A stretch of DNA of 64,000 nt from Actinomycetes bacterium (lineage in GTDB: Bacteria > Actinomycetota > JAICYB01): assembly GCA_025934435.1 (NCBI GenBank), contig JAICYB010000011.1:1-64000 (forward strand). Reading direction: 5' to 3'. This document shows, one piece after another, positions 11,263-16,389 of the stretch. The notes below the pieces were generated by a model. The model saw only the letters and a program-made list of their open reading frames with translations, ran no database searches and was not told where the DNA came from. The first letter of the stretch is position 1. Every line of letters starts with the position of its first letter. A program made the position numbers and the translations under genes.

Positions 11263-11742
11263 ATGCCAACCGTCGAGGTTCGCGACTTCGGCCCGGACGA
11301 TCGCAGCTGGGCGTACGACTTCCTCTTCCCGAAAGGCACTCCGTCGCGCATCGCCTCCAAGGGTGTGCTCCACGACCCGCTCGCGCTTCCGGGATTCGTC
11401 GCGTGGCTCGACGACGAACCCGTCGGCCTCGTCACCTACCGGCCGAAGGAGTGGGAGATCCTCACCCTCGACAGCGTCCGAAACAACACGGGTGCGGGCA
11501 CGGCGCTGATCGATGCCGTGAAGGATGTCGCGCGCGAGGCCGGCGCGAAACAGGTCTGGCTGATCACGACGAACGACAACACGCACGCGTTCCGTTTCTA
11601 TCAACGGCGAGGCTTCGTCGTGCGAGAGGTTCGTCCCGGCGCCGTCGATCGTGAACGGGAGACGATCAAGCCCGAGATCTCGCGAACCGGGAACGACGGC
11701 ATCGCGATCCGCGACGAGATCGAACTCGTTATCGACCTGTGA
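11263..11742 (+). CDS. GNAT-family N-acetyltransferase
   Basis: A 159-residue acyl-CoA-dependent acyltransferase. The acetyl-CoA binding loop is RNNTGAGTALIDAV (about residues 74-87), with the usual strand LDSVRN before it and FRFYQRRGFVVRE after it, the alpha4-beta7 segment of the fold. ATG 11263 is the first start that gives the normal GNAT N-terminus (MPTVEVRDFGPDD). The 3' end overlaps the convergent citrate synthase gene by 14 bp. The acceptor substrate is unknown. Confidence 0.87.
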   Translation: MPTVEVRDFGPDDRSWAYDFLFPKGTPSRIASKGVLHDPLALPGFVAWLDDEPVGLVTYRPKEWEILTLDSVRNNTGAGTALIDAVKDVAREAGAKQVWLITTNDNTHAFRFYQRRGFVVREVRPGAVDRERETIKPEISRTGNDGIAIRDEIELVIDL

Positions 11743-12865
11743 CGTAGCGCGCCGACGGACGGAAGATGCGGTTGTCGGCGATCTGCTCGAGCAGGTTCGC
11801 CGTCCAGCCGGCCATGCGGGCGACGGGGAACGTGCAAGCGAAGAGCTCCTCGGGCACACCGGCGTAATCGAGCACCACGCCGGCGTAGAGCTCGATGTTC
11901 GCTTCGCGGTGCTTGTCCGCCTTGCGGTCGTTGAGCAGCTGCACGCCGACGCGTTCGACTTCGAGCGCCAGCGCGACGCGCGGGTCGTTGATCGACCGCG
12001 CGAGCTCACGCAGCACCGTGTTTCGCGGATCAAGCGTGCGGTACACGGCATGGCCGAACCCCATCAGGCGCTCGCCGCGGTCGAGCCGGTCCTTCATCCA
12101 GCGCTCGACGCTCGACGCATCACCGATCGCCGCGAGCATGCTCGGCACGCGGTCGATCGCGCCGCCGTGCAGCGGACCGGACAGCGCGCCGATCGCACCC
12201 GACAGCGCAGCACCGACATCGGCACCGGACGAAGCGATCACCCGCTCGGCGAACGTCGAGTTACAGAACCCGTGATCGGCGGCGAGGATGAGATACGTCT
12301 CGAGTGCATGTACCTGCTCCCGCGACGGGACGACGCCGTTCACCATGTACAGATAGTTCGCCGCGAAGCCGAGGTCTTGCCTCGGCTCGACGATCGCAAG
12401 GCCGCGCGCGAGACGGAACAGCGCGGCGGTCAGCACCGGCGTCAACGCGGCGAGGCGTTCGATCTGTTGACGCGTTGTCGTTTCGTCCTGTTCCGTCCAC
12501 GGGCGGCAGCCGATCGCGACGCCGGCCGCGGACACCGCGGAGCGCAGGACGTCGATCGAACCCGCCGGTCCGAGCGCGGCGAGCGACGGGAGCGCGGCGC
12601 GGAGCACCGGCGGCATGCGCATCGCGTCGAAGACGGCCGCGCGGAAGGCTTCACGATCTTCGGCCGACGGCAGCGCGCCGTTCAGCAAGAGGAACCATGC
12701 GTCCTCGAAGCTCCCGGTGCGGACGAAGCTCGTCGGATCTGTTCCCCGGTAGTGGTAGAAGCCGGCGGTCCCGTCGACGTCGGATACCGACGTGGTCGAC
12801 ACGGCGACTCCTTCGAGCCCGCGCGGCGCGACGGGCAGCTCGGTGCCAAGGCTCGTAACGGTCAT
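11729..12865 (-). CDS. Citrate synthase / 2-methylcitrate synthase family enzyme
   Basis: A 378-residue citrate synthase of the short bacterial type, condensing oxaloacetate with acetyl-CoA or propionyl-CoA. Both catalytic histidines are present, in ALSGPLHGGA and MGFGHAVYR, as is the segment NIELYAGVVLDYAG that holds the catalytic acid region. The N-terminal GVAVSTTSVSDVDGTAGFYHYRG block is usual. A good Shine-Dalgarno (GAGGAG) lies before ATG 12865. The opposite gene, starting 71 bp away, is a frameshifted HTH-citrate-synthase regulator, and a large palindrome lies between them. Citrate or methylcitrate synthase cannot be told apart here. Confidence 0.88.
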   Translation of the reverse strand: MTVTSLGTELPVAPRGLEGVAVSTTSVSDVDGTAGFYHYRGTDPTSFVRTGSFEDAWFLLLNGALPSAEDREAFRAAVFDAMRMPPVLRAALPSLAALGPAGSIDVLRSAVSAAGVAIGCRPWTEQDETTTRQQIERLAALTPVLTAALFRLARGLAIVEPRQDLGFAANYLYMVNGVVPSREQVHALETYLILAADHGFCNSTFAERVIASSGADVGAALSGAIGALSGPLHGGAIDRVPSMLAAIGDASSVERWMKDRLDRGERLMGFGHAVYRTLDPRNTVLRELARSINDPRVALALEVERVGVQLLNDRKADKHREANIELYAGVVLDYAGVPEELFACTFPVARMAGWTANLLEQIADNRIFRPSARYVTGR

Positions 12866-12915: not shown

Positions 12916-12941
12916 GTCAATATTGAATAATCAACATTGAC
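12916..12941. promoter_or_regulatory. 26-bp inverted repeat, likely operator
   Basis: Arms GTCAATATTGA (12916-12926) and TCAACATTGAC (12931-12941) are reverse complements with one mismatch, separated by ATAA. The AT-rich site lies in an otherwise GC-rich gap between two divergent genes and covers the TTG start at 12937. An operator for the HTH protein encoded to its right is the simplest reading. Confidence 0.6.
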
Positions 12942-14012
12942 TGACTCCACGCGATCCTTGACGGCGGCCCAGGCCGCGGCCCGGCTCGGCGTGAAGCCCG
13001 CGACGCTGTACGCCTACGTGAGCCGGGGGCTGATCCTCCGCCACGTCGCGGAAGACGGTCGGACGAGCCTCTTCGACCCGGCCGATCTCGCGAAGCTCGA
13101 GCGCCGGTCGTCGCGGAGGCGAGGCCGCCCGGCCGACGTGATCGTCGCGTCCGACCTCACGCTCGTCGACATCGAGGCCGGCCGTGTGTTCTACCGCGGC
13201 CTCGATCCGGTGGACGCTTGCCGCACCCGGCGCTTCGAAGAGATCGCCGGGTGGCTCTGGACGGGCAACTTCGACGGCACCGGCGTCTGGCGCTCGCCAC
13301 CCGGCGCCGAGCTGCCGGAGGCACCTCCGCTCGAGCGCGTGCGTTTGTGCGCCGCACGTTTCGCGACAAGGTCGTCGCCCGTCGTGGCCGCCGGTGAACT
13401 GATGTCGAGCCTCGTCGACGCACTTCCGGGGCGGGGTACGCGAGGGACGTTCGCCGAACGACTCTGGACGAAGCTCGGTGGTTCGTCCGGCGACGCGAAG
13501 TTGCTCGACACCGCGCTCTCGCTCACCGCCGACCATGGACTCACCTACTCGTCACTGATCGCGCGCGTCGCGGCCGCCGCAGGCGCGGACATCGCATATT
13601 GCGTCACGGCCGCGATGTCGGCAGCGATCGCTCCGTCCCGCTTCGCATCGATCGAGGCAGCACTCGAACGGGACGAAGCCGTCGAGGATGAACCGGCCCC
13701 TATCGCCGTGGCGATCCGCGCGGTGCCGCCATAATCGCGATGCTCGGAGACGACCACGTCCGATCGCTCGTCGGCGCCGCGCCGAGCGCCGCCGTCGCGC
13801 AAACGGCGCTCGCGTGGTCGTGCGGGATGCGTCCGGGATCGGGCGAAGTCATCTCACTCCTGTCGCGCGTCGCGGGATGGATCGCGCACGTGCTCGAGGA
13901 GTACCGGCGTCCGACGCCGTTCCGTCCGCGGCTCGCCTACACCGGTCCGGCTCCTCGTGCGACGCCGGTCAAAGCGCTCGACGCCGTCCAGGGCTATCTG
14001 GCACGGGAGTGA
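12937..14012 (+). pseudogene. HTH-citrate synthase-like regulator with a frameshift and no catalytic His
   Basis: The N-terminal 55 residues form a MerR-like helix-turn-helix (LTAAQAAARLGVKPATLYAY) and the rest is a citrate synthase-like domain, as in a known actinobacterial family. The first frame ends at TAA 13732-13734. The missing continuation lies in another frame open from 13692: YRRGDPRGAAIIAML matches the family's LYxxGDPRAxxLL block, and ...SRVAGWIAHVLEEYRR is the usual C-terminus to 14012. A one-base loss near the CCCC at 13697-13700 would explain it. Both catalytic His blocks (PLHGGA, GFGH) are absent even when joined. It may be a decaying gene, a non-enzymatic regulator, a -1 slippage product or an assembly error. 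Confidence 0.7.
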
Positions 14013-15222: not shown

Positions 15223-15249
15223 CAACCTTTTGGGACGACCCACCGTTTC
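15223..15249 (+). promoter_or_regulatory. Candidate ECF-sigma promoter of the sigma gene
   Basis: A -35-like CAACCTTTT (15223-15231) is followed, 16 nt after CAACC, by CGTTTC (15244-15249). An AAC-containing -35 and CGT-containing -10 at 16-17 nt is the general form of ECF promoters. The start GTG 15256 lies 6 nt after this -10, so autoregulated leaderless expression is possible. Confidence 0.4.
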
Positions 15250-15255
15250 CTATCC

Positions 15256-16389
15256 GTGAGACTGGAAAGCGATGACGCCGGCGAACTCCTCCGGCTCGCG
15301 CAGGCGATAGCCGGACGGCTCGTCGGGACCTCCGACGTCGCCGACGTGGCGCAGGAAGCGGTCGCGCGGGCCGCACAGCGCTGGCCCGAGATCCACGACT
15401 ACGCCAAGAACTGGATCGTTCGCGTCACGACGAATCTCGCGCTCGACCGTCTTCGCGCACAGGGCCGGACCGTTGTCGCGGTCATCGACGACGAGGCCGC
15501 GACGCCGGATGACACCGAACTTCGGATCGACGTCGCACGGGCTCTGACGCGGCTCCCCGTCCGGCAGCGACAGGTCATCACGCTCCGGTATCTCGCCGAC
15601 CTCACCGAAGCGGACGTCGCCCGCGAGCTCGGGTGTTCCGTCGGCGCGGTGAAGCGTCATGTCTTCCGAGCGAAGCAAGCACTCCGGACCGGATTGGCAG
15701 ATCTCGCACCGCCCCAAGCGAAGGAGGAGAAGGTGACAACACAGGGTTGGAAGGAACTCGGATTCATGGCCGCCACGGAGCCGGCGGAAGGTTGGGAGAC
15801 GCGACCGTGGGACCACTGGTTCATGGAGGGGCCCGACGGCGCGTGGGACCGCGTCGCGGTTTCGACGGACGGAACTCCCGTCCTCGACGCCGACGGCGAC
15901 GAAGTGATGTCCGGACCAGGGTTCGAGCACGCCGTCGTGAAGGTGCTGCCGGGAACGGACCTCGACGCGCCTCGTCCGGCCCCGTCGTTCGATCATCTCG
16001 ACGCCGAAGCGGCTGCCGTCGTTTCCTCGGCCGTCGACGAAGCGGCAAGGTGGGGTCATCCGTGGGTCGGCGACGAACACCTCGCGGTTACGCTCCTCGC
16101 CGGCACGGACGATGCCCACGCGCTCGACCGCGCGATCGCGGCTTTCTATGAAGGACCGTGGGCCGACCGGCGACTCGAGATCGTCGGCGAACGCCGCCGC
16201 GGCGGTGACTTCGTCCGCCAACCGGACGCGGCGTACTCGTGGACCGACTCCGTCGCGCAGACGATCGCCGCCGGCACCGATCTCCGCTCGCTACGCCGGG
16301 CGTTGCTCGCGAAGGAGCACTCGCTCCCGCTCATCCTTCTCGAGCAGAGCGGCTTCGATGCGACGCATCTGACTCAGGCGAATCTGTAA
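15256..16389 (+). CDS. ECF sigma factor fused to a Clp_N-like domain
   Basis: A 377-residue protein with two parts. Residues 1-155 are an ECF (SigE-type) sigma factor: region 2 around DVAQEAVARAAQRWPEIHDYAKNW and region 4 LPVRQRQVITLRYLADLTEADVARELGCSVGAVKRHVFRAK. After a linker, residues about 247-290 (DEAARWGHPWVGDEHLAVTLL) match the repeat of the ClpA/ClpC N-terminal domain, and residues 330-370 look like a second, weaker half-repeat. Clp_N domains bind adaptors or damaged/arginine-phosphorylated proteins, so this may be a built-in sensor. A Shine-Dalgarno AAGGAGG at 15721-15727 precedes an in-frame GTG 15733, from which the C-terminal part could be made alone. The end overlaps the convergent small gene. 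Confidence 0.75.
   Translation: MRLESDDAGELLRLAQAIAGRLVGTSDVADVAQEAVARAAQRWPEIHDYAKNWIVRVTTNLALDRLRAQGRTVVAVIDDEAATPDDTELRIDVARALTRLPVRQRQVITLRYLADLTEADVARELGCSVGAVKRHVFRAKQALRTGLADLAPPQAKEEKVTTQGWKELGFMAATEPAEGWETRPWDHWFMEGPDGAWDRVAVSTDGTPVLDADGDEVMSGPGFEHAVVKVLPGTDLDAPRPAPSFDHLDAEAAAVVSSAVDEAARWGHPWVGDEHLAVTLLAGTDDAHALDRAIAAFYEGPWADRRLEIVGERRRGGDFVRQPDAAYSWTDSVAQTIAAGTDLRSLRRALLAKEHSLPLILLEQSGFDATHLTQANL

Follow-up and report, generated by a model that had tools for sequence, protein, structure and literature searches.

One gene of the window (the whole 64-kb stretch of DNA analysed here) encodes an ECF sigma factor joined in frame to a soluble module with a double Clp_N domain, and this module occupies the slot that a membrane partner holds in related sigma loci. 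The reading that we prefer, and to which we give slightly less than an even chance, is that a soluble Clp_N module took the place of the membrane partner of an ECF sigma factor, was then fused to that factor and acts as its on-board cytosolic sensor or inhibitor. The gene and its parts are as follows.

15256–16389, forward strand: sigma–Clp_N fusion gene, 377 amino acids, GTG start, TAA stop
15286–15471, forward strand: sigma-70 region 2 (residues 11–72), PF04542, E = 1.5e-8
15529–15684, forward strand: sigma-70 region 4/4_2 (residues 92–143), PF08281, E = 2.3e-17
15733–15975, forward strand: N-terminal part of the module (residues 160–240) with PWDH, DGTP and GPGF motifs, conserved with the stand-alone homologue of genome G002, no Pfam match
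15985–16170, forward strand: Clp_N repeat 1 (about residues 244–305), containing GHPWVGDEHL
16228–16386, forward strand: Clp_N repeat 2 (about residues 325–377), degenerate, with a shortened GxEH loop

Inspection of the open reading frame places the GTG at 15256 as the first start past the preceding in-frame stop. The protein begins with a SigE-like ECF sigma factor (residues 1–150), and the soluble module of 218 residues follows in the same frame. The first-pass annotation had described residues 1–155 as a normal ECF sigma factor, in agreement with the two domain matches: regions 2 and 4 alone are present with a short linker between them, and PF04542, PF08281 and TIGR02937 all score above their cut-offs. 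The SigE family TIGR02983 is the best NCBIfam match, yet its score of 99.8 bits falls short of the cut-off (141.55), hence the name SigE-like. The upstream neighbour is a luciferase-like monooxygenase and the downstream neighbour an ORF of 116 amino acids without Pfam match, which confirms the earlier observation that no anti-sigma gene adjoins the sigma factor. The intergenic gap in front of the gene contains one further feature.

15223–15247, forward strand: candidate ECF-type promoter CAACC-N16-CGTT, ending 8 nt 5' of the GTG start

This site could conceivably be an autoregulatory promoter. Sites of its type number 10 in the window against 4.9 expected, and the one further point in its favor is the placement in a gap of 61 nt. 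Given that the promoter would end 8 nt before the GTG, a leaderless start of the fusion gene is possible. The whole genome holds 14 sites against 5 in a reversed control, and the motif is thus too weak for naming a regulon. Four of the 14 genome-wide TCAACC-N15-17-CGTT sites are located on this single 70-kb contig (2790–2814, 9137–9161, 15222–15247 and 42357–42381), a clustering that may be due to chance; at least one of the four falls within a gene.

Comparison with related sigma loci provides the context for the extension. The closest sigma relatives (40–48% identity) are ordinary ECF factors without a Clp_N extension. In 28 of 35 related loci, the ten closest examined all among them, the gene that follows the sigma factor encodes a protein with a membrane segment, usually located towards the N-terminus. 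The overlap between partner gene and sigma stop codon measures 4 or 8 nt in 21 of the 35. Judged by position and topology, these membrane partners are probably anti-sigma factors. A membrane segment was also sought in the extension by Kyte–Doolittle hydropathy, and none was found: the best value is 0.68, compared with 1.66 to 2.81 in the partners of those 28 relatives.

The assignment of the module to Clp_N depends on the model used. The C-terminal part had been described as Clp_N-like with a weaker second half, and a search with the Pfam model did not recover it, as PF02861 gives no match to the fusion protein and its C-terminal part is without any Pfam match. In contrast, a Clp_N profile made from ClpC genes of Actinomycetota scores the region at 2.7e-10, and the two-sequence module profile aligns with a double-Clp_N profile across both repeats (hhalign probability 97.9%, E = 3.2e-13). 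A phmmer comparison with solved structures (177,635 sequences) matches residues 247–285 to the N-domains of ClpC (3pxg, E = 3.7e-4; 2y1q, E = 5.8e-4). These three results bear out the description, second half included: residues 244–377 form a full double Clp_N domain, in which repeat 1 is good and carries the GxEHL motif, and repeat 2 is degenerate and ambiguous in its alignment. Single-sequence AlphaFold prediction of the whole protein gave a pLDDT of 41.5, too low for use. An alignment-based model of the module, folded from an alignment that left out its G002 homologue, reached 51.6 (about 70–83 in repeat 1). All 50 of the Foldseek matches listed for this model are Clp N-domains, at an E-value of only 4e-3 and with Clp_N proteins in the input alignment. 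The analysis thus adds to the first-pass annotation the conserved stretch of residues 160–240, the presence of repeat 2 in degenerate form, and an AGGAGG with a GTG at the domain junction.

The search of related genomes revealed a sole close relative of the module, a stand-alone gene of 249 amino acids without sigma domain in G002, which belongs to the family of the window genome and to another genus. The two share 39% identity over residues 164–343, with conservation strongest in PWDH, GPGF and GHPWVGxEHL, and the homologue passes the Pfam Clp_N gathering score (27.8 vs 20.7 bits). Its neighbors, by reading of the ORFs, are a putative HerA-like ATPase gene and a putative OsmC-like gene, so its genomic context differs from that of the fusion gene. 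Among about 160 of the 396 Actinomycetota genomes, the two-sequence profile mainly matches ClpC proteins, and does so where their Clp_N lies, at the N-terminus. No second sigma–Clp_N fusion was found in these 396 genomes, which are a fraction of the phylum; the list of sigma factors sharing the extension, which the earlier annotation had hoped for, comes down to this one. The fusion is seen in a single genome, so conservation cannot be invoked in favor of the fusion itself. Viral contigs, plasmids and phages yielded no relative of the module, and profile patterns run over genome contigs gave no confirmed candidate. A DNA pattern for HPWxGxEHL found 31 stretches in genome contigs, 11 of them genuine Clp_N and none joined to a sigma factor. 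Extensions of ECF factors known so far include SnoaL, TPR and WD40 domains as well as membrane anti-sigma parts. In the literature covered here, no ECF factor with a Clp_N extension came up, and the main ECF classification might hold an unlisted Clp_N group.

Occurrence in a single species, a degenerate second repeat and the loss of known ligand contacts are features that would also suit an extension without sensory role, either a scaffold or oligomerisation domain or the decaying passenger of a recent fusion. We consider this unlikely, as the coding signal of the module is intact and its likeness to the stand-alone gene of another genus peaks in the three motifs named above.

The junction between the sigma part and the module has the sequence AAGGAGGAGAAGGTGACA and two features of interest.

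15722–15727, forward strand: AGGAGG, Shine–Dalgarno-like, 5 nt 5' of an in-frame GTG
15733–15736, forward strand: GTGA at the junction; a +1-frame TGA overlaps the in-frame GTG, which is codon 160

In the alignment, the internal GTG coincides exactly with the start of the stand-alone G002 homologue. AGGAGG occurs only 12 times on the forward strand of the window, and the KEEK codons would yield it regardless. The junction looks as one would expect of an overlapping sigma/partner pair joined by a one-base frame change, and a sequence error could therefore mimic a fusion. In that case, sigma factor and module would be encoded by two genes that overlap at the GTGA, hidden by internal initiation or by a one-base indel from sequencing or assembly, and their products would still be a functional pair. 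Besides the AGGAGG, the GTG and the overlapping TGA, this reading draws on the overlap of exactly 4 nt between sigma gene and partner in 14 of the 35 related loci, and on a frame change close by. The latter concerns a MerR-HTH and citrate synthase-like gene (12937–14009, forward strand) that is divided between two frames, 12937–13731 and 13740–14009; the central part of its citrate synthase domain is missing, and it adjoins an intact divergent citrate synthase (11732–12865, reverse strand). With a whole middle segment missing as well, the MerR–citrate synthase pair appears decayed and not misread. The frame of the fusion gene is open across its junction, GC3 and codon-position GC are even on both sides, and there is no long homopolymer, all of which makes an apparent fusion quite improbable. 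The module alone may also be made from the internal start at codon 160.

Mycobacterial ClpC2 (PMC10030653) and the widespread HTH/Clp_N pairs set a precedent for a regulatory role of Clp_N on a transcription protein, as the first-pass annotation proposed. In a sample of Clp_N ORFs assembled by Clp_N similarity (some by the HPW motif) and not by HTH, a specific small HTH is upstream or fused in 22 of 53 non-ClpC ORFs, compared with none of 25 ClpC loci. Thirteen of these HTHs are separate genes directly upstream (about 75 aa) and nine are fused. When a profile is built solely from the separate HTHs, it recovers each of the nine fused HTHs (E = 1.7e-12 to 1.8e-6), so the two forms are homologous. 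Units of two genes, one for a 75-aa HTH and one for a double Clp_N protein, are common across Actinomycetota, Streptomyces species included, and are found in the following loci.

HTH plus double Clp_N units: L065, L067, L083, L085, L091, L094, L096, L098, L111, L130, L131, L132 and L148

The mycobacterial fused HTH–Clp_N protein is ClpC2, with 202 bits to PDB 8b9o and an N-terminal part that matches 8ada. ClpC2 (Rv2667) binds cyclomarin A, represses its own promoter as long as this ligand is absent, shows about twofold heat induction and slows casein degradation (PMC10030653). Its residues at about 60–82 (L070:2072–2827, forward strand) resemble an HTH homologous to the separate 75-aa HTH proteins. 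DNA binding by ClpC2 has been assigned to the Clp_N part, and the published N-domain crystal covers residues 4–72 (PMC10030653), stopping before the likely recognition helix. The family of the window genome also has such genes: G001 carries one HTH/Clp_N pair and, directly downstream of groEL (926–2572), a gene for a 349-aa fusion of HTH and Clp_N with a pair of ClpX-type zinc fingers (L147:2737–3783, forward strand). None of the other 395 genomes searched showed such an architecture, and the protein is a candidate regulator of protein quality control. Clp_N is found as well behind a ribbon-helix-helix-like N-terminus (L063:520–1233, forward strand; L072:1603–2283, reverse strand) and behind an excisionase/MerR-like HTH (L081:1812–3029, forward strand). 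Derivation of the sigma part from the small HTH of these pairs was considered and rejected, region 4 being only distantly similar to that HTH.

Under the preferred reading of a replaced membrane partner, a putative anti-sigma protein with a single membrane pass, encoded by an overlapping downstream gene, would have been swapped for a soluble Clp_N module, and this module would afterwards have been fused in frame to the sigma factor. The module would contact the sigma part and keep it from RNA polymerase. Once a ligand of the ClpC type, be it unfolded protein, adaptor or ClpC-targeting peptide, engaged the Clp_N pocket, the sigma factor would be freed, a release that we propose by analogy with ClpC2. 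Inhibition, the type of ligand and the direction of control are what we infer for the fusion protein, and it might conceivably sense protein damage or couple to the Clp protease, as the first-pass annotation had suggested. Control of ECF factors by C-terminal extensions is established for the SnoaL and TPR types (PMC8999054). Of the cyclomarin contacts of ClpC1, the F2 position is kept in the module, and F80 and E89 are not. With these residues lost, the ligand is not simply cyclomarin-like, and given the added degeneracy of repeat 2, the module may have lost the ability to bind a ClpC ligand. Binding of phospho-arginine, also raised earlier, is not supported and we reject it as unlikely: of the Glu sites of the phospho-arginine type, the second is degenerate, and the arginine kinase McsB (PF00217) was not found in the window genome (G000, 94% complete) or its two relatives G001 and G002, with a positive result in the Parageobacillus control (G396).

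Recognition of the extension by ClpC or its adaptors could alternatively set the half-life of the sigma factor, with no sensing of a ligand. Clp proteolysis does control other ECF factors (AntA by ClpXP, and as proposed for ECF115; PMC8999054), Clp_N domains are bound by ClpC adaptors, and the genome encodes ClpC. Clp_N, however, is the receptor side of ClpC and not a known degradation tag, and no adaptor gene lies next to the fusion gene; such a turnover handle is in our view decidedly unlikely.

Should the sigma factor be controlled by the module, a receptor for protease substrates would be linked to promoter choice in a single protein, and gene expression may be coupled to whatever the Clp_N domain senses in the cell. 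We tentatively propose, as somewhat less than an even prospect, a one-protein stress switch in which the Clp_N receptor sets ECF activity and transcription follows the ligands of the ClpC protease, within a broad class of actinobacterial Clp_N regulators. The HTH/Clp_N pairs give ClpC2 a wider context, and since they are common in Actinomycetota, Clp_N may be a general cytosolic sensor for transcription, also for antibiotics that target ClpC.

Among known systems, ClpC2 resembles the fusion in having a double Clp_N on a transcription regulator, and ligand binding to its Clp_N alters transcription (PMC10030653). In ClpC2, a repressor, the N-terminal domain is a small HTH; the fusion carries a complete ECF sigma factor instead, together with the stretch of residues 160–240, and lacks the full set of contacts F2, F80 and E89 (ClpC1 numbering). 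ECF41 (SigJ), with its SnoaL-like extension, is likewise an ECF factor without anti-sigma gene that has a C-terminal regulatory domain (PMC8999054), but that domain is unrelated to the Clp_N module. The TPR extension of ECF42 is C-terminal too and is thought to act by protein binding (PMC8999054); its repeats belong to a different family from Clp_N. In ECF52 and ECF53 (SCO4117), the sigma factor is joined to an apparent former separate partner, a membrane anti-sigma part; those extensions cross the membrane and the Clp_N extension is soluble. The N-terminal domain of ClpC and ClpA (PF02861) shares the two Clp_N repeats with the fusion, which differs in having no AAA+ modules, a degenerate second repeat and an attached sigma factor.
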